Below, piece by piece: positions 1,429 through 61,100 of a stretch of DNA of 64,000 nt; positions within the stretch are counted from its first letter, which is position 1; every line of letters starts with the position of its first letter. The translations under genes were made by a program, and so were the position numbers. Source of the stretch: Abyssibius alkaniclasticus (GTDB lineage: Bacteria > Pseudomonadota > Alphaproteobacteria > Rhodobacterales > Rhodobacteraceae). The stretch lies in the NCBI RefSeq assembly GCF_020447305.1, contig NZ_CP095732.1, positions 2,016,501 to 2,080,500 on the forward strand, written 5' to 3'. The notes under the pieces were generated by a model. The model ran no database searches. It saw nothing but the letters and a program-made list of their open reading frames with translations, and was not told where the DNA came from.

Positions 1429-2987
1429 TTCCGCGCCCTCACATCATAGGGGGTTTGTTTGAAGGTTATGTTTTCGCCCTCAAGCGTGGTATCGGCCAAG
1501 ACCGTGCGTTCGCCGTAAATGGTCAGCGGCCCGTCAAAATCGCCCGCCGCTTCGCGGATAAGCCGCAAGGTTTGGCGGTTCAGCACATTGCCGCCATTCA
1601 CCGATTTATCGCCCAGAATGCCGTTGTAAAGCAGCGCAATGCCCTTGCCGCCCAGCGCCCCTAGGAAGGGTGTTGAAGTTTCCGGCGCATCCCACGGCTG
1701 GTTCATTTCTGAAAACCAGATATGCGCGGCCAAGGTGGGAAAGCGGATATCGGGTTGTAGCCCGCCGGTTTCATCGAACACCGCCGCGCCCAGTTTGAAA
1801 AACCGGAACCCGCCGCCGCCTTGCCAGTTTTGCGCCTTGGAAATGCCGCCCTGTTCACCATCGACAACCTTGGCCAAACGCGGCTGGCAATGCGTGACGG
1901 CATGTTCGCCCATTTCAATGCCAATATACCGCCGCCCCATTTTCTGCGCGACAGCGGCAGTTGTGCCAGAGCCTAGGAATGAGTCGATGATAAGATCGCC
2001 GGGTAGTGAGGCTATGTGTAAAATACGTTCAAGTAAACGTTCCGGCTTTGGAGTTGAAAAAATTTCATCAGCATTAAAGTCGCGAACTTCTTTTTTTGCT
2101 TCGCTGTTTCCACCTACATCATTTTGCAACATTACTGACAGCGGCACTGTTCCTTGTTTTACGTTTTTTAGGAACCTCTTAATCATCGGGACGCCGTCAC
2201 CACCTCGTGCAAAAACAATTAAATTGTCACTCAACAATTCTTTATAACGTGATTCTTTCGCACCCCAACACCGCCCCTTAGGGGGCAAAACCTTTCGCCC
2301 AGACGGTAAGGTGATTTCATATATGTTTTCGCTTACACCCGTTCGAGCATATTGCGCCCCTCTAGCGCCGCCTGTTAAACTAATCGTAAAATTGTCGGGC
2401 ATATACAATCCACGCGGGTCATCTTTACGATTATATTTTGCGTTTAGTTCATCTGTCCTTGCAAGCGGATTAGGCTTCCATTTGTTCTTCGACTTTGCAT
2501 AAACAATTACATGGTCATGATTATCAGAAAACCAGAGTGCATGTGCTTGCGGCGCGGTTTTCTTTTGCCAAACCAAATTTGAAATGAAATTCTCCCTCCC
2601 AAAAACCTCATCCATTATGACTTTAAGATAATGCCCTTCACGGTCATCAATACTTACCCATATCGACCCATCCTCTGCCAGCAATTCCCGCAACAGCTCC
2701 AACCGTGGCCACATCATCGCCAGCCATTGCGAATGCTCCAGATTGTCATCGTAATGCTCAAAGGCCGATCCGGTGTTGTAGGGCGGGTCGATATAGATGC
2801 ATTTCACCTGGCCCGCATAGAACGGCAGAAGCGATTTCAGCGCCTCTAGGTTATCGCCCTGTATCAGCATATTGCCCGTGTCGCGGTCGCCATAGCCCAG
2901 CGCTGGCACTTCCTCCAGTAAGCGATACGGCACCTTTTCCGCCGCCCGCACATCCTGATCCCGCGTCAACCATCGCAATGTGGGCAT
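1425..2987 (-). CDS. mod: Type III-like site-specific DNA methyltransferase (Mod)
   Basis: A 520-residue beta-class amino-methyltransferase: the catalytic DPPYNTG is at residues 67-73, and the AdoMet-binding FLGSGTT lies later, near residue 340. The order DPPY before FxGxG, and the long segment between them that acts as target-recognition domain, fit type III Mod proteins and related N6-adenine methyltransferases. It protects host sites and supplies specificity to the Res protein encoded next to it. The middle of the gene (about 1990-2600) is clearly more AT-rich than both ends, which suggests that the recognition domain was exchanged. The start is ATG at 2987 with only a weak AGG upstream. 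Confidence 0.88.
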   Translation of the reverse strand: MPTLRWLTRDQDVRAAEKVPYRLLEEVPALGYGDRDTGNMLIQGDNLEALKSLLPFYAGQVKCIYIDPPYNTGSAFEHYDDNLEHSQWLAMMWPRLELLRELLAEDGSIWVSIDDREGHYLKVIMDEVFGRENFISNLVWQKKTAPQAHALWFSDNHDHVIVYAKSKNKWKPNPLARTDELNAKYNRKDDPRGLYMPDNFTISLTGGARGAQYARTGVSENIYEITLPSGRKVLPPKGRCWGAKESRYKELLSDNLIVFARGGDGVPMIKRFLKNVKQGTVPLSVMLQNDVGGNSEAKKEVRDFNADEIFSTPKPERLLERILHIASLPGDLIIDSFLGSGTTAAVAQKMGRRYIGIEMGEHAVTHCQPRLAKVVDGEQGGISKAQNWQGGGGFRFFKLGAAVFDETGGLQPDIRFPTLAAHIWFSEMNQPWDAPETSTPFLGALGGKGIALLYNGILGDKSVNGGNVLNRQTLRLIREAAGDFDGPLTIYGERTVLADTTLEGENITFKQTPYDVRARK

Positions 2988-3073
2988 AAATTCAACCTGT
3001 CATCCTTGCGCCCCGATCTTGCGCCGGGGCACTTGGCCAAACCCTAGCCAATGGGGCCATGCGGCAAAAGCCC

Positions 3074-4096
3074 CTATCGCCCCATATCGCGCAAGATTTG
3101 CATTTGCCGTTCGGTTGTAACGGGTAAGTATGAATTGATCGTGGTCGCCACGTTTTCATGCCCCATATTCATCGACCATGCTTTGAACGCCTCGCGGTTT
3201 GGGCAAATCTTGTCGCCATAATGGGTGAGGGTTTTGCGGAAGGCATGAGGGGTGTATTGCGGCATCTGAACCGCTGCAAACGCGCCGCGAATGATCGTGT
3301 TCAACTTTGACCCATTGGTATAGCCGGTGCGCGCCAAGCCCGTATTCGCAAAGCCCTTGCCCTTCACCACCGCCACCCGCGCCTTGGGAAATAGCGCATC
3401 CTCTGGCCCGAACAATTTGACCTCGCGCAGATAGTTGAAATAGGCAGTGAAACAGTCGCGATAGGTGGGATCAATCGGCAAGAACTGGCTATGGATGGTT
3501 TTCGCACCTTTGGTTTTCACCTCGCGCGCATCCTGGAACACATGCCCAAGCTCGATGTTCACATGCTTGAGCTTTAATGTTGCCACGGCACCATCGCGCG
3601 CACCTGTCAGCATGAAGAAGGCAAACAGCGCCTTGTCGCGTTTCTGGAACTCGGTTTCAAACGGCATCGCCTGAAACGCATGTGCGGCCTGTTCCATTGA
3701 CGGATAGGGAATATCGCGTTCGGTATGCGCCACCCGCGCCGCTTTGCGATTGTTGTTGAAGTAGTCCACATCCGGATAGGTTAGCACACGCTTATAGCCC
3801 GGCCTGCTCACCAGCCAGTGAAAGAAGTTTTTGACCAGCCGCAAGGTGGCGTCGACCGTTGAAAACCCCAAAGGTTTGCCCGTTTTGGTGTTCTTTTGTT
3901 TGGCCAGATAGTCCTTAAAATCTGCCGCCTGTTGGCGGTGGAACTTCTTGAACGATTTGAATTTCGTGCTTTCCTCAAACCGCCGGATCGCCGCCTGCGC
4001 CTTGTCAATCGTGCTGTCATCCTGCCCTTTGGCATGGCGCAAATAGGTGGCGTAATCGCGCTTGATACGCTCGTTTTCCTCTAGATATCGCGTCAT
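3074..4096 (-). CDS. Tyrosine recombinase (phage-integrase family)
   Basis: A 340-residue recombinase. The N-terminal part resembles a SAM-like core-binding domain. The C-terminal catalytic domain has the first Arg in TGARDG (near 164), HAFRKT (HxxR, near 286), and MGHENVATTINSY with the nucleophilic Tyr near 323. The start is ATG at 4096 with AAAGGA upstream. It lacks the N-terminal arm-binding domain seen in the second integrase at 5860-7077, so it belongs to a different lineage and may be cargo, a resolvase-like enzyme, or a remnant of an earlier insertion. It lies 86 bp from the mod start on the same strand. Confidence 0.88.
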   Translation of the reverse strand: MTRYLEENERIKRDYATYLRHAKGQDDSTIDKAQAAIRRFEESTKFKSFKKFHRQQAADFKDYLAKQKNTKTGKPLGFSTVDATLRLVKNFFHWLVSRPGYKRVLTYPDVDYFNNNRKAARVAHTERDIPYPSMEQAAHAFQAMPFETEFQKRDKALFAFFMLTGARDGAVATLKLKHVNIELGHVFQDAREVKTKGAKTIHSQFLPIDPTYRDCFTAYFNYLREVKLFGPEDALFPKARVAVVKGKGFANTGLARTGYTNGSKLNTIIRGAFAAVQMPQYTPHAFRKTLTHYGDKICPNREAFKAWSMNMGHENVATTINSYLPVTTERQMQILRDMGR

Positions 4097-4211
4097 CTGC
4101 TTTTTCCTTTCTGCCAGTCGTTTTCAGCCTGTATCTGCCTTGTGTTTCCGCCCGACTCTGCGGTGGGCTGGAAGTTATAGTTCACGCTAGGTTTGAGAGG
4201 TTCCTTTAGGC

Positions 4212-4631
4212 TCATTCCCTGTTGCGTGTGGCGATGCTAAGAATTGGGGCCAATTCAGCGCATAGCTTTGGGCTGGCAAACTTGCCACATAGCCCTTGGC
4301 AAGCCTCACAAAGCGCCTCTAGCCTGCCGCGACCATCGGTATAGGGCAGGTAGTCAGCCATGCCGCCATAGGCGCGCCGTGGGGCATTGCAGGCCATGCA
4401 CAAGAACTGGTCCAGCGCCAAGCGCCGTTCCGGTTTGTTCGACCGATTGGCGATGAACTCCTTAAGCGCAAAGCCCAAGATCAAATGCGGTTTCTGGCTG
4501 TCCAGAACCTGCAAACCAGATTGCCGCCACAACCGCACCGTTTGAGTTGAAACGCCCAGCGCATCGGCTGCCTGCTCATAAGTGTATTGGTTGTGAATCT
4601 TGATCTTGCGCGCGGAAACGCGCTTGGCCAT
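4212..4631 (-). CDS. Small helix-turn-helix protein with a C-terminal cysteine cluster
   Basis: A 139-residue protein. Residues about 13-60 (YEQAADALGVSTQTVRLW) look like a MerR/excisionase-type helix-turn-helix. A second half contains CMAC and CEAC pairs about 35 residues apart, which could bind zinc. Its ATG overlaps the TGA of the upstream 70-residue gene (TGATG), so the two are co-translated. The pairing of an AlpA-like gene and this gene between two integrases suggests control of excision or of island genes. No family name is certain. Confidence 0.6.
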   Translation of the reverse strand: MAKRVSARKIKIHNQYTYEQAADALGVSTQTVRLWRQSGLQVLDSQKPHLILGFALKEFIANRSNKPERRLALDQFLCMACNAPRRAYGGMADYLPYTDGRGRLEALCEACQGLCGKFASPKLCAELAPILSIATRNRE

Positions 4632-4843
4632 CAGTTGCGCCCTGCCTTGCCGGGTTCAACGCGGCTGGCTTCCGCCCACGTGTTCAAATCGGCCCCGCGA
4701 TAGATGATCTTGCGGCCAAGGCGATAGAAGGCTGGCCCCATGCCTTTATGCCGCCATTGTGCCAGTTTTTCGCGGTCGCCGATCAGGTCCAGTTCAGTAT
4801 CGCCAAGCACATAGTTTCTGTTTTGCTCGAATAAGTTTGTCAT
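4631..4843 (-). CDS. AlpA/excisionase-like small DNA-binding protein
   Basis: 70 residues. The segment around KLAQWRHKGMGPAFYRLGRKIIYRGADLN is the recognisable helix-turn-helix plus wing of AlpA/Xis-type regulators, where a helix, a conserved PxFxRLG-type turn and a YR(G/R)xDLxxW tail occur. The last part, LNTWAEASRVEPG, completes that pattern. Proteins of this type bind near attachment sites or integrase promoters of genomic islands. It is the first gene of a two-gene unit with the cysteine-containing HTH protein downstream. Confidence 0.65.
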   Translation of the reverse strand: MTNLFEQNRNYVLGDTELDLIGDREKLAQWRHKGMGPAFYRLGRKIIYRGADLNTWAEASRVEPGKAGRN

Positions 4844-4941
4844 GCCGCTGGTCCTTTGCTGTTAGCATGGGACCGTTTCAGCATGGTTCGATGTATTGGG
4901 AAACGCGCTTGGAAAGCCCGTTTCTTTCGGCAATTAAGGGG

Positions 4942-5754
4942 TTAGTTTTCGGACCCTTTTTTTCCTCCAACCGCAAGTTGCATTGCAATTTGAGATAAAA
5001 TGCCGGGAGAAGGCGGCTCAACTCTATTTTCAGCCCAAATATATTGCTCAAGCGCATTAGGCGGTGGGTTTACGTCTTCGTCAGTGAGTTGAGAAATGGC
5101 CCATTTTGCTGCATGGCGTATATTCGCATCGATACCTAAGACTTCGTAAATTTGTTCAAGAATCCGCCCATATTCCGTTGACGGATATGGCCCATCACTT
5201 GAGGTTCCATAAGTCGGCAATCGTCGCTGCGTGCGCGCATAAAACCGTGCAAATCTTAAAGCGATAGTTCGAGCATAATAGTTTGGTGGGCGGTTGCTGA
5301 CTTTCCAGAACTGAGTTTCCTGCTCCATCAATTCAATGTATCTCTTTGAATATGCTTGATACATTTCGAATGCGACATAAATAGTTGAGTTGAAAAAGTC
5401 GGTTTGCATAACATTGCGCAAGGCTAGATCAATCGCAGTATAAGGCGGTTCGCTTTGAATCCTTGACGCAGCGGTTATGTTTATGACTTGGCTTAGTCGT
5501 TCAAACATTTCCGCCTGCTCGGGGGGTTGACCTGGCTTGTTGCTGACAAGTCTCGTCAGCAAAGTGTGCAGGCTATCAGAAACCAATTTGACTGTATCGC
5601 GTTCAGCAATGAACTCGCTTTTATTGTCGTGGATATTCGCCTTGTCCAAGCTAAAGAAGTGAGGCTTATCGCCGGGCCAAGCGCGTTTTGGCTGCCAGCC
5701 TAGCTGTTCCTCAAGAATGCGCCGGACCTGATCTTCTTTGGAATCTTCTGTCAT
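4942..5754 (-). CDS. Hypothetical protein of the island
   Basis: 270 residues, soluble, with no signal peptide or membrane segment and no motif I recognise. The N-terminal MTEDSKEDQVRRILEEQLGW is charged and probably helical. The rest is rich in aromatic and charged residues (YMQAYSKRYIELM-like helices) without cysteine clusters or nucleotide-binding loops. Base composition is lower in GC than the housekeeping genes to the right, as for much of the island. It stands alone between the small HTH genes and the P4-type integrase. It could be a defence or regulatory cargo gene, but nothing in the sequence proves that. Confidence 0.55.
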   Translation of the reverse strand: MTEDSKEDQVRRILEEQLGWQPKRAWPGDKPHFFSLDKANIHDNKSEFIAERDTVKLVSDSLHTLLTRLVSNKPGQPPEQAEMFERLSQVINITAASRIQSEPPYTAIDLALRNVMQTDFFNSTIYVAFEMYQAYSKRYIELMEQETQFWKVSNRPPNYYARTIALRFARFYARTQRRLPTYGTSSDGPYPSTEYGRILEQIYEVLGIDANIRHAAKWAISQLTDEDVNPPPNALEQYIWAENRVEPPSPGILSQIAMQLAVGGKKGSEN

Positions 5755-29175: not shown

Positions 29176-29565
29176 TCACTGAACAGGACTGAGATGCTGC
29201 TGCGCCGCCCATTCTGATGGAAATGGTCCCAGCAGATCAGCTAGATTCAAATCCGACGCCTGCCGTCCCTTGATGATCGCCTCCACGATGTTGGGCGCCA
29301 ACAGGCTCAGGCGCAGCACTCGCGTCATGTAAGTAACCGCGATCTCTTCATGTTCGGCAAGTTCGGCGGTCGTCGCGAACTGCCCACTTTCCAGCATCCG
29401 CTTCCAGCGGAACGCGCGGGCCAGCGCCTTGACCAAGGTGTTGTCTATCTGGCGTTGGTTGGATGCCCCGTCCGGCAGCTGCATCTCCTTGCGGCCGCCT
29501 CGCTTCACGAGGCGGAACGGGATGTGCACTGTCACTGTTTCCGTCACTGGCGTCGCGCGGTTCAT
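29176..29565 (-). CDS. ParB/KorB-like HTH small protein associated with a serine recombinase
   Basis: 129 residues. TTAELAEHEEIAVTYMTRVL followed by RLSLLAPNIVEAIIKGRQ is the ParB/KorB-type helix-turn-helix. The N-terminal half (VTVHIPFRLVKRGGRKEMQL) is basic and probably beta-rich. Its start overlaps the stop of the serine recombinase gene (ATGA at 29562-29565), so it is co-translated, a layout often seen with large serine recombinases of this type. It may act as a recombination directionality or accessory factor; that role is inferred only from position. Confidence 0.75.
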   Translation of the reverse strand: MNRATPVTETVTVHIPFRLVKRGGRKEMQLPDGASNQRQIDNTLVKALARAFRWKRMLESGQFATTAELAEHEEIAVTYMTRVLRLSLLAPNIVEAIIKGRQASDLNLADLLGPFPSEWAAQQHLSPVQ

Positions 29566-30865
29566 GCCGCGTACCCCACTTCGGCCATCATTTCTCGTGC
29601 CAGACCGGTCAGACCGTCCATCCGGAGGCTAACACTCAGGCCATCGGTGCCGATATCGATCCGTTCGATCAACAGTGCGGCGATGCGTGCCTGCTCGGCG
29701 GGGAACAGTTCGTCCCACAGCGGATCAAGATGGGTTAGCGCGTCACGGGCGTTGGCCTCGGTGATATCGCCATCCTCCGAGCGGGCTGCTTTCCACGTTC
29801 CGGCCACGATTTCGGGCTGGCGGAACACGGCGCGGAGTTGATATATGACGGCGGCCTCGATTTCGCCTGCCGGAACACGGCCGACCGGACAAGAGCCCGC
29901 GCCGTGCTTCAGCACTGATTGACTGACGTAGTACCGGTACAGCCGACCGCCCTTGCGGGTGTGTGTCGGCGAGAAGGCCGCCCCGTCGGGGCCGTAGAGC
30001 AGACCTTTCAGCAGCGCAGGAGTGTCGGCGCGTGTGCGCGCGGCGCGCTTGCGGGGGCTTTCGGTCAGGATGGCGTGGACTTTGTCCCAGACATCCTTGT
30101 CGATGATGCCATCGTGCTCGCCGGGATAACTGTCGCCCTTGTGTACGGCCTCACCGATGTACGCGCGGTTGTTCAGCAGGCGATACAGGTACTTCTTGTC
30201 GATCCGGTTGCCACGGCTGGTCTGGATACCGCGCGCCGCCAGTTCCCGCGCCAATTCCGTGCCCGATCCGATCTCGATGAACCGGGCGAAGATCCAGCGG
30301 ATGTTGGCGGCATCGGCCTCCTTGATGACCAACTTTCGGTCCTTCACCTCGTAGCCCAGAGGTGGCACGCCACCCATCCACATGCCCTTCATACGGCTGG
30401 CGCGGACCTTGTCGCGGATGCGTTCGGCGGTTACCTCGCGTTCGAACTGGGCGAATGACAGCAGGATGTTCAGCGTAAGCCGCCCCATGGAGGTGGTGGT
30501 GTTGAAGGACTGAGTGACGGATACGAAGGTGACGCCATTGCGGTCAAACACCTCTACCAGCTTGGAAAAATCCATCAGTGAGCGCGACAAGCGGTCGATC
30601 TTGTACACGACGACCACGTCAACCAAGCCATCTTCGACATCGGCCAGCAGTCGTTTCAGGCCGGGTCGTTCCAGCGTGCCGCCGGAAATGCCGCCATCAT
30701 CATATTGATCGCGGACCAACACCCAGCCTTCTGACCGCTGACTGGCGATGTACGCCTCGCAGGCCTCTCGCTGGGCGTGGAGGCTGTTGAATTCTTGCTC
30801 AAGACCTTCCTCCGATGACTTCCGGGTATAGACGGCGCAGCGCAGTTTTCTGACGATGGGTTTGG

Positions 30866-30869
<4 letters not shown>
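29562..30869 (-). CDS. Large serine recombinase (site-specific integrase)
   Basis: 435 residues. The resolvase-type N-terminal catalytic domain has YTRKSSEEGLEQEFNSL with the nucleophilic Ser, DDGGISGGTLERPGLKRLL, and VYKIDRLSRSL. The recombinase domain follows (RGIQTSRGNRIDKKYLYRLL, AYIGEAVHKG), then a DNA-binding end with HTRKGGRLYRYYVSQS. It would integrate and excise the prophage by a serine-linked cut-and-rejoin. It is coupled at both ends to neighbours by ATGA overlaps (DUF2924 upstream, ParB-like HTH downstream). Confidence 0.93.
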
Positions 30870-58049: not shown

Positions 58050-58895
58050 TCAGAGGGTAACCTCGTATCGGGCCCGCAATGCCTTGAGATGCCGCGCCAA
58101 CCACTCTGCTGGCCCGGCATCATCCCAAGCACGCCACAGTTCAGGATAACTCATGGCCCGAAACCCTGGCGTCGATCCGGCCACACGTTCTGCGAAGGCG
58201 GCTATCTCTTGCCTGTGGGCCCTAAACTCAGGACTGGCATCCGGGTTTGCGGGTTCCCAATAGAGGTAAAGCAGGGTCACAGGGTGTTCCCGAAAGGTGC
58301 GCGCCAGCCCAAATGCATGCTTGATCAATTGCGCTGCGTCCAGCCAGACGTAACTGTCAGGCGCATCGATCAGGCGCAGCATCTCATGGAAATATCCTTG
58401 TTCTCGCCGATCATCGCGGATCTGTTCGGCATAGGCGGGGGAGAATGAGGCTCGGTGCCTTGCGAGATACTCGCTCAACTTGGACTCGACTCCGACAACA
58501 CCTTTCGGACCCGACAGAACGACATCGAGGTTGGGGGCGCGACCGCCACGAAGGCCGGTTGGGCACTTGCGCTCGAACTGCAGCGCCGCGAAGGGGCCGC
58601 AGCTCGGCAGAGCCAGATCGACAATCCGGGTCCGAAACGGTGCAAAACAATTGACCGCGAGCCCCGAGGATGAATGCGCGGCGCGGAACTTGGTTTGCAG
58701 TTCGTTGCCATCCCCGGCCTGCAGGTCAACCTCGAAATCCTCGGTCGCGACAAGCGGCAGAAGCGTATCGCAAAAATCGGGGGCATAGCCTTTGTCGTCG
58801 ATCAGGATGTCGGGCCGCTGGCGCGCAAATGCTGTCCTTAGGGCAACAAGCGCCCGCCTTCGAACTGGGCTGTTTGAAGATAAATTCTGTTTCAT
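58050..58895 (-). CDS. PD-(D/E)XK nuclease-like cargo protein (reverse orientation)
   Basis: About 281 residues from ATG 58895 (58913 also possible). In the middle PNLDVVLSGPKGVVGVESKL contains a D...E-x-K pattern of restriction-type nucleases, resembling the group annotated as PGN_0703-type putative restriction endonucleases. The later part (SYVWLDAAQLIKHAFGLART, HPVTLLYLYWEP) matches that group as well. It lies in reverse between capsid and head–tail genes, 17 bases from the next gene's start, so it is an added moron. A defence role against competing phages is plausible but unproved. Confidence 0.7.
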   Translation of the reverse strand: MKQNLSSNSPVRRRALVALRTAFARQRPDILIDDKGYAPDFCDTLLPLVATEDFEVDLQAGDGNELQTKFRAAHSSSGLAVNCFAPFRTRIVDLALPSCGPFAALQFERKCPTGLRGGRAPNLDVVLSGPKGVVGVESKLSEYLARHRASFSPAYAEQIRDDRREQGYFHEMLRLIDAPDSYVWLDAAQLIKHAFGLARTFREHPVTLLYLYWEPANPDASPEFRAHRQEIAAFAERVAGSTPGFRAMSYPELWRAWDDAGPAEWLARHLKALRARYEVTL

Positions 58896-58911
58896 AGGGG
58901 CAGTATAGGTC

Positions 58912-59226
58912 ATGACCAGCGCATTTGCATCCGCAATGGAAATACTGTTTACCGATCCAAACATCGGTAGGGAAGGGATATATATCGCCGACGGCGGCAC
59001 GCCCATGCTGGTGCGCATCGTCTCGCGGCAGGCTGATGCGATCACCGACTTCGGCGACGCACGGCTTTGGTCGGAAACGACCCGGATCGATCTGCGTGTC
59101 GCTGAGGTTCCAGCTCCGCGCCCCGGAGACCGCATCGAGATCGACGGCGACGCCTTCCTCATTCAGGGCGAGCCTGTTCGCGATCGCGAGCGGCTGGTCT
59201 GGACCGTGGATCTGCGCCCTGCATGA
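58912..59226 (+). CDS. Head–tail connector protein (gpFII-like position)
   Basis: 104 residues: FASAMEILFTDPNIGREGIY, LVRIVSRQADAITDFGDARL, RIDLRVAEVPAPRPGDRIEI. It has a beta-rich fold and the length of connectors that close the head neck. The order capsid–connector–tail and its overlap with the next gene (ATGA at 59223) identify it. Specific family not confirmed by motif. Confidence 0.75.
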   Translation: MTSAFASAMEILFTDPNIGREGIYIADGGTPMLVRIVSRQADAITDFGDARLWSETTRIDLRVAEVPAPRPGDRIEIDGDAFLIQGEPVRDRERLVWTVDLRPA

Positions 59227-59852
59227 AGCTCAAACTCGACATCGATCCGGACATCGTCGCCATGATGGCAACGGAAGTGGCTGCGGGCGAACGCGCGGTA
59301 ACCGCCGCTATGCGCGAGGCCGGGACCGGACTGAAATCTGCGTGGCGGTTGCAGATCACCGGCGCGGGGCTTGGGCGAAGGCTCGCAAATTCGATCCGCA
59401 ACCAGAACTTCCCGAGGTCGGGCGAGAGCCTCGACGCGGCCGCGCTGGTCTGGTCGAAGGCCCCGGTTATTGTCGGGGCACATGACACTGGCCCCCTGAT
59501 CCGATCGAAGGACGGCTTCTGGTTGGCAATCCCGCTACCCGCTGCAGGCAAATCCACACGCGGCGGCCGGATCAGCCCCGGAGAATGGGAGCGGCGGCGT
59601 GGTCTGCGATTGCGGTTTGTCTATCGCCGGACGGGTCCGAGCTTGCTTGTCGCCGAAGGGAGACTGAACACGAAGGGTCAGGCTGTGGTGTCCCGCTCGA
59701 AGACCGGGCGTGGCAAAGTCACCGCACCGATCTTCTTGTTGGTGCCGCAGGTGAAGCTGCCAAAGCGGCTGAACCTCGACCGGGACGCAGAGCGTGCGCT
59801 CGATAGTGTTCCGGGGTTGATAGTGGCGAAGTGGGTCGCGGTGCGATTATGA
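59223..59852 (+). CDS. DUF6441-like phage tail-completion protein
   Basis: 209 residues. GLKSAWRLQITGAGLGRRLA, SLDAAALVWSKAPVIVGAHD, GRISPGEWERRRGLRLRFVY and VTAPIFLLVPQVKLPKRLNL match DUF6441, a family of head–tail/tail-completion proteins of Rhodobacterales siphoviruses. It overlaps the connector gene upstream and ends 6 bases inside the reverse-oriented caspase-like gene. Confidence 0.82.
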   Translation: MKLKLDIDPDIVAMMATEVAAGERAVTAAMREAGTGLKSAWRLQITGAGLGRRLANSIRNQNFPRSGESLDAAALVWSKAPVIVGAHDTGPLIRSKDGFWLAIPLPAAGKSTRGGRISPGEWERRRGLRLRFVYRRTGPSLLVAEGRLNTKGQAVVSRSKTGRGKVTAPIFLLVPQVKLPKRLNLDRDAERALDSVPGLIVAKWVAVRL

Positions 59853-60593
59853 CTTCGGTCCAGCTACCAGCTTTCTGTCCTTCCAGAGACGAAAGCTTGT
59901 GCTGCCAGGAACGCTTGCCCGTGCATGTTTGAACGCGACTGTCGCGGTTTCTCCTTCGAGCAGATGGTAGACGAGAAACGTCTGAACGAACTGAGAAGCA
60001 ATCGCGCCGTGCACGCTGTGGAACGGGCCAATAAATCGTTCGCATGAATTGTGAGAGGATGCTGCTCCGCCAAATGCCTTGTAACCGGTCTCGCAGCACA
60101 GACTGATAAAGGTCTTTGCTGAAACTCCTGCAACATCAAATACGTTCATGAAGGCATCTGTATCAATCCAATCACCATTCGCGAATTTGATGCTTGCATC
60201 ACTACCATGGCCAATCAGGATCACATGTGAATAGGCTGCATGGGATCGGCCCCACAAGACTTCAATTTCTTGCAAGGACCTCACCTTGTAAGCATGAATG
60301 AAGTCATCGGAGACGAGCAGTCTGCAAAACTGGAGTATCGATTTACCCAGCGGATCGAGAAGTGTGGTTTCTGTCTCCAAGTCTCCAATATTCAGCATCA
60401 AAACGCCAATATTGCGATGACACAGGCTGCTTGCAACCAACTCGGTTTCTGCATTGCCGACATCGACGCGAACACTCCTGCCTTCTACTGCCAATACTCG
60501 CTTCTCGACGAAGGACGATGGCGACTGCACATTCGCTTTTATCTTCGATACGGGCACAAAAACCCGTTCATCTATATGGAGGTTTTTGGCCAT
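59847..60593 (-). CDS. Caspase-fold (CHAT/peptidase C14-like) protease candidate, reverse-oriented cargo
   Basis: About 248 residues from the probable start ATG 60593 (the frame opens at 60650). HVILIGHGSD gives the catalytic His of caspase-like peptidases (near 128) preceded by hydrophobic strand residues, and FISLCCETGYKAFGG gives Cys near 165-166. The 37-residue spacing and the two flanking strand patterns are those of CHAT/C14 proteases. An N-terminal domain of about 110 residues has no known match. CHAT proteases act in bacterial defence and gasdermin-like systems. No partner gene is next to it; it lies alone in the late operon. Confidence 0.6.
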   Translation of the reverse strand: MAKNLHIDERVFVPVSKIKANVQSPSSFVEKRVLAVEGRSVRVDVGNAETELVASSLCHRNIGVLMLNIGDLETETTLLDPLGKSILQFCRLLVSDDFIHAYKVRSLQEIEVLWGRSHAAYSHVILIGHGSDASIKFANGDWIDTDAFMNVFDVAGVSAKTFISLCCETGYKAFGGAASSHNSCERFIGPFHSVHGAIASQFVQTFLVYHLLEGETATVAFKHARASVPGSTSFRLWKDRKLVAGPKS

Positions 60594-60680
60594 CAGGAAT
60601 CCAGTGTATGAAGTGAACGGTACTTTCCGTTCAATTGCATCAAACGGCAAGCCAAAGGTGGCGCAGAGAAGGAATTCAGA

Positions 60681-61100
60681 GTGCCTACCTCCCGCGAAAC
60701 TATCCTAGCCGCGCTGCACGCGAGACTCTCGGCGCTGCCCGCCATGGCCCTGCGCGGCGAGGTGCTGCCCGAGCGCGTCCCGGCCGATGGGCTGCTGATC
60801 CTGCGCGACGGTGAACCCGGCGAGCCCGAGGTGACGCTGTCGCCCCTGCGCTACCACTACCAGCACCGCGCTGAGATCGAAGCGGTCGTGCAAGGCGCAG
60901 ACCGTGACGCCACTTTCGACAGACTGACTGCCAGCATCGGCGCGGCAATTGCTGGCGACCGCACGTTGGGCGGCCTCTGCGACTGGGGCGAGGCGGAAGC
61001 CCCGCGACCGGTCGATCTGCCCGTTGAGGGCACGGCCAGCCTGAAAGCGGCCGTGATCCCGGTGGTGCTGCATTATTCAACGGCCGATCCGTTCGGCTGA
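60681..61100 (+). CDS. Putative tail terminator protein
   Basis: 139 residues from GTG 60681. SRETILAALHARLSALPAMA, RGEVLPERVPADGLLILRDG, YHYQHRAEIEAVVQGADRDA and GDWGEAEAPRPVDLPVEGTA-like strands follow the size and alpha/beta pattern of gpU-type terminators. The position just before the tail tube gene is the usual one. Identity is based on position and pattern, not on a diagnostic motif. Confidence 0.7.
   Translation: MPTSRETILAALHARLSALPAMALRGEVLPERVPADGLLILRDGEPGEPEVTLSPLRYHYQHRAEIEAVVQGADRDATFDRLTASIGAAIAGDRTLGGLCDWGEAEAPRPVDLPVEGTASLKAAVIPVVLHYSTADPFG

Follow-up and report, generated by a model that had tools for sequence, protein, structure and literature searches.

What does a gene for a protease-like protein do when it lies in reverse inside the late gene block of a phage? 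The question is raised by the window, a stretch of 64,000 nucleotides from Abyssibius alkaniclasticus (contig NZ_CP095732.1, positions 2,016,501 to 2,080,500), in which such a gene is surrounded by a lambda-like late block with a terminase and a portal recognized by Pfam. Caspase-like proteases of bacterial immunity are mostly parts of larger machines, as in type III CRISPR and gasdermin systems. The features of the locus are as follows.

59847..60593, minus strand: CHAT/caspase-fold protease gene, the hotspot cargo (ATG at 60593, 248 aa)
59223..59852, plus strand: DUF6441 gene, left border of the hotspot (PF20039, E 5e-45; phrog_6367)
60681..61100, plus strand: tail terminator, right border of the hotspot (phrog_4204, E 2.9e-41)
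60594..60680, minus strand: upstream region of the protease gene, between the gene start and the tail terminator start; presumed own promoter
58050..59162, minus strand: antisense REase-ARP gene (PF22558, E 8.6e-42, residues 109-366), given as its longest ORF
29562..30869, minus strand: serine recombinase, probable prophage integrase

Identification of a conserved gene

The reversed frame at 59847-60593, which a sequence-only reading of the window had placed within the phage late block, was borne out as a conserved and real gene. Relatives found by tblastn showed 97, 86, 85, 83, 44, 44, 36 and 35% identity (about 34–97% overall). Three lie on IMG/VR phage contigs (97, 86 and 85%), one in Paracoccus sp. 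2205BS29-5 (83%), one on a Pseudohalocynthiibacter plasmid (44%) and two in further genomes of the host's family (44 and 35%). In addition, five Gordonia phage records carry a homologue, among them CarolAnn gp35 at 36% identity. Viral-contig searches using the plasmid and hsd-linked homologues as queries returned no further relatives. The host genome (3.2 Mb, single contig) holds one copy of the gene; a second match there (L014, E 1.3e-5) fell in an ABC-transporter gene and was dismissed as a chance match.

The closest pairs gave dN/dS values of 0.036 and 0.075, within an overall range of 0.02–0.08 (about 0.04). Distant pairs that could be measured gave 0.02–0.04; dS was saturated for several pairs. 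The gene is under purifying selection and, given its relatives and low dN/dS, encodes a real, selected protein.

Predicted fold and catalytic site

No family model of Pfam, PADLOC, NCBIfam or PHROGs matched the protease (Pfam and PADLOC at E <= 1), and neither PF12770 (CHAT) nor PF00656 (C14) gave a Pfam match. A sequence search of solved structures returned nothing meaningful. The protein was modelled with AlphaFold2 using an input alignment of eight rows, from which the plasmid-record row was left out, and the model reached a pLDDT of 89.8 and a pTM of 0.89. Two domains were assigned, the second containing both putative catalytic residues.

60408..60593, minus strand: predicted Tudor/SH3-like beta barrel, codons 1-62 (AlphaFold2; matches with Z up to 7.3)
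59850..60413, minus strand: caspase/CHAT domain, codons 61-248 (VIA-align Z 19.9 to 8tl0 305-495)
60207..60209, minus strand: codon of H129 in the GHG motif, putative catalytic His (invariant in nine homologues; aligned to the His of CHAT 'THG')
60093..60095, minus strand: codon of C167 in 'CCETG', putative catalytic Cys (invariant in nine homologues; aligned to the Cys of CHAT 'SAC.T')

When the model was searched against the PDB with Foldseek, the top five matches were SAVED-CHAT chains (8tl0, E 2.2e-7), followed by caspases. VIA-align superposed model residues 61-242 on the CHAT domain of 8tl0 with Z 19.9 and an rmsd of 2.6 over 173 residues, and caspases and legumain gave Z 13–14. The high-confidence model, which resembles the CHAT domain of SAVED-CHAT most closely and caspases next, thus supports the caspase fold proposed earlier.

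In the model H129 follows the strand at 121-127 and C167 the strand at 160-164, which are the places of the caspase dyad. An alignment of nine homologues showed G128-H129-G130 and C167 to be invariant, while the leading Cys of 'CCETG' varies. The GHG and SLCCETG segments, which had been read as the site of a His–Cys dyad with a 37-residue spacing, are both real, but the invariant Cys is the second one, C167, and the spacing is 38.

The protease profile was also compared with one built from 19 bona fide CHAT domains of related genomes. H129 aligned with the His of CHAT 'THG' and C167 with the Cys of 'SAC.T'. The score was 26.8, compared with 14.0 +/- 2.5 for column shuffles, and none of 100 shuffles reached it. 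A C14 profile scored near the shuffled level (6/100 shuffles reached its score). The absolute hhalign probability against CHAT was 7%, so the protein is classed as a divergent CHAT-like peptidase outside PF12770. Predicted fold and catalytic-site register both support a CHAT/caspase-like protease, and His129 and Cys167 would form the catalytic dyad of the predicted cysteine endopeptidase.

Predicted N-terminal barrel

An N-terminal domain of about 110 residues had been left unassigned. It is in fact about 60 residues long, since residues 61-110 already belong to the caspase fold, whose opening strands and helices they form. Modelled alone, residues 1-62 fold independently (pLDDT 88.6), with no Pfam match. 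Between 50 and 55 residues align to Tudor, KOW/SH3-like and myosin N-terminal barrels with Z 6-7, the best being a Tudor domain (7.3). The Foldseek E-value is about 0.03, and because the domain is so small the match is good for the fold class only. The sensing domain suggested from the sequence would correspond to this small, predicted Tudor/SH3-like barrel.

A cargo hotspot between DUF6441 and the tail terminator

The place of the gene was examined in DUF6441 loci chosen without regard to the protease (80 IMG/VR loci, plus 30 in genomes belonging to the host's family). Together with four protease-bearing loci, both border genes were found in 98. The DUF6441-tail terminator junction holds at least 250 bp of extra DNA in 95 of these 98 loci (median 855) and is empty in three, with a gap of 0 or -9 bp. 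Neighbouring junctions were filled in 4/112, 10/87 and 3/41 loci (3–11%). The gap is about 830 bp in the window and near 0 in L112, L123 and L125.

The cargo has a lower GC content than the DUF6441 gene in 88/88 loci, and the main cargo ORF is antisense in 62 of 85. BLAST clustering divided these main ORFs into 66 unrelated clusters in 85 loci, with nucleases, toxins, transporters and matches to defence models among them; the cargo counts are approximate, since the choice of ORF was mechanical. Pfam assigned 41 families among 82 cargo ORFs, including HEPN, NERD, NYN, RES and ParE, and also cation, chromate and sulfate transporters and GNATs. PADLOC matched 30 models on the same 82 ORFs, e.g. 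PD-Lambda-2_B, PDC-M19, PDC-S31, DrmC and PglW-like, and the majority of the cargo has no family name. Since the cargo is mixed and mostly unnamed, hotspot position alone is no proof of defence.

The protease was found at the same place in five phage or prophage loci (the window, L010, L011, L012 and L007) and in none of the 110 loci gathered without regard to it, which makes it a rare cargo of the hotspot. Its GC content is 0.49 (vs 0.64). It is an extra gene separating two genes that relatives have side by side, and it shows the deviant composition and own orientation characteristic of a moron. The reversed orientation is explained by the nature of the junction as a cargo hotspot and is not unique to the protease: other cargo is mostly antisense, and the REase-ARP gene is antisense too.

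A second DUF6441 prophage of the host (L201:4178-5344) has at the same cargo site an antisense ORF of 388 aa with a GC content of 0.45 and several hydrophobic stretches. The REase-ARP gene of the window lies between capsid and head-closure genes, a second, independent and more rarely used cargo site. Its true start is probably near 58900, because the longest ORF overlaps the head-closure-like gene. Homologues were found in L001/L010 (95%), L044 (70%) and L098 (74%) and not in L012. An apparent 'REase' in nearly all related loci was rejected as spurious, the long ORF overlapping the head-closure gene in antisense; among the loci compared, the true nuclease part is present only in L001/L010, L044 and L098.

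Upstream of the protease gene, the short block CTT.GGCTTGC.GTT is conserved in five phages amid divergent DNA and is a possible promoter element. No sigma-70 promoter consensus was seen in the region 60594-60680. The palindrome GAACGG-6-CCGTTC, considered as an operator, is not kept in L002, L003 or L007 and is therefore not taken to be one.

The hotspot is the broader finding and perhaps matters more than the protease. Rhodobacterales genomes and viral contigs can be scanned for the junction of this fixed gene pair, which offers a source of new one-gene cargo from a group of ecological importance in marine and soil habitats. The literature searched contained no paper naming DUF6441 and none on the DUF6441-tail terminator hotspot, which does not in itself prove novelty.

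Homologues in other neighbourhoods

In genome G206 (L016), the protease gene (4531-5274) overlaps the end of hsdR (2085-4538), which is of the EcoEI type (EcoEI_R_C, E 1.7e-34). The start of hsdM (HsdM_N, E 3.9e-7) follows the protease gene at the contig end, and L016:2085-5549 forms one operon.

In two other loci (L005 and L015), the homologue lies directly downstream of an E1-like gene. The operon there (L005:1-7812 and L015:5329-13174) encodes a sigma-like HTH protein, a UvrD-PDDEXK-M78 helicase, a small protein, DUF7665, JAB and the E1-like protein. It occurs on many proteobacterial plasmids and is possibly an undescribed ubiquitin-like conflict system; DUF7665 is rare within the host's family. 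The same operon was found without the protease on plasmids of Roseovarius, Rhizobium and Aminobacter. A partnership of the protease with the Ubl/E1/JAB operon was rejected on this ground, and the protease beside it is taken as an island neighbour.

CarolAnn gp35 runs opposite to the tail genes, close to the integrase. RNA-seq of the CarolAnn lysogen showed genes 34-36 to be transcribed at a lower level, and the defence demonstrated for this phage is that of gp43/gp44, not gp35 (PMC6426606). The earlier description of a lone gene without a fixed partner held: the protease is a single gene in all five phage and prophage loci of the same layout, and the operon beside its plasmid homologues occurs without it.

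Function of the protease

The protease is probably a single-gene CHAT-type moron with an anti-phage role, which would sense a rival phage and respond by cleaving a target. A new single-gene exclusion system, as suggested before, is plausible and the best explanation. It is favored by the moron hotspot, by the operon in which a homologue sits between hsdR and hsdM, and by transcription of the region of the CarolAnn homologue in the lysogen. A Rhodobacterales siphophage would carry the protease as a lysogenic-conversion gene in the dedicated cargo site between DUF6441 and the tail terminator. In the prophage state the gene would be transcribed from its own antisense promoter, and the protein may be held inactive until an infecting phage perturbs the cell, activation perhaps passing through the Tudor/SH3-like barrel. 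The active protease would then cleave a host or phage protein and stop the infection, by analogy with Borvo and Craspase probably via growth arrest or cell death.

A more specific and more tentative version, to which somewhat less than even weight is given, holds that this 'Tudor-CHAT' stand-alone caspase is a new single-gene exclusion system with the barrel as its sensor. It would be one of dozens of single-gene modules, mostly uncharacterised, that are exchanged through the hotspot, and one branch may have settled between hsdR and hsdM, where it would act as a suicidal fallback for restriction. If true, this 248-residue, one-gene defence carried by temperate phages would rank among the simplest of the caspase-like kind, and the small size of the barrel makes the question of its trigger directly testable.

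Other functions were weighed against the same evidence. A moron protease might help the lysogen outside phage defence, for example if it cut a host regulator or a stress protein, with effects on lysogen physiology or prophage stability. The hotspot also holds fitness genes for chromate, cation and sulfate transport, GNAT and GST, which is consistent with such a role. Nevertheless, a housekeeping function would leave unexplained the homologue within a type I restriction operon and those next to an E1/JAB/UvrD island, and it is considered unlikely. The anticodon nuclease PrrC, whose gene lies within a type I restriction locus, offers a parallel for the protease as a guard or back-up of restriction. 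Its trigger would be the inhibition or alteration of a restriction or repair complex by an incoming phage, and the phage copies would guard against the anti-restriction of rivals. The overlap of hsdR and the protease gene in L016, with HsdM_N following, points in this direction, but the arrangement is known from one genome only and the prophage copies have no adjacent hsd genes, which leaves such a guard with a small chance of being correct.

A lysis or host-takeover factor, also suggested before, or a protease of virion maturation would fit the position inside the late gene block. Such a role is disfavored and appears very improbable: the gene is encoded on the strand opposite to the late block and absent from 110/110 unselected related loci, unrelated cargo replaces it in sister phages, and some homologues are plasmid-borne or part of a restriction operon. 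Adjacency to the E1-like gene in L005 and L015 might indicate a component of the ubiquitin-like (E1/JAB) conjugation system that cleaves conjugates or is cleaved with them. With plasmids of three genera carrying that operon but no protease, and phage copies carrying no such operon, this explanation is largely refuted and hardly credible.

Comparison with known systems

Borvo is a single-gene anti-phage system. A CHAT protease domain is the proposed effector of this defence system (PMC10952713). Compared by description only, the window protease resembles it in being a CHAT-type protease encoded by one gene, and differs in having a Tudor/SH3-like domain before CHAT and in being phage cargo. The window protease had no PADLOC match at E <= 1, a result that says nothing on homology to BovA.

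The closest solved fold is the SAVED-CHAT filament protease of type III CRISPR (8tl0), at 13% identity. SAVED-CHAT contains a SAVED domain, the sensor of cyclic oligoadenylate, whereas the window protease has none, and no CRISPR locus was seen beside it. Craspase is described as a caspase-like CHAT protease in phage immunity (PMC9729208). Unlike Craspase/TPR-CHAT (Csx29), the window protease has no TPR repeats, gRAMP or nearby gene for a Csx30-type substrate. Peptidase C14 caspases and metacaspases share with it the overall fold (Z 13–14) and the order of His and Cys, but its C-terminal helices and 'C.T' motif are CHAT-like.

Prophage exclusion genes such as the RexAB-like CarolAnn gp43/gp44 and those of the P2/P4 defence hotspots are likewise phage-borne cargo in a defined variable locus, and are expressed in lysogens, as the window protease may be. 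They belong to other protein families and to loci other than the head-tail junction of Rhodobacterales siphophages, in which the window protease is carried.
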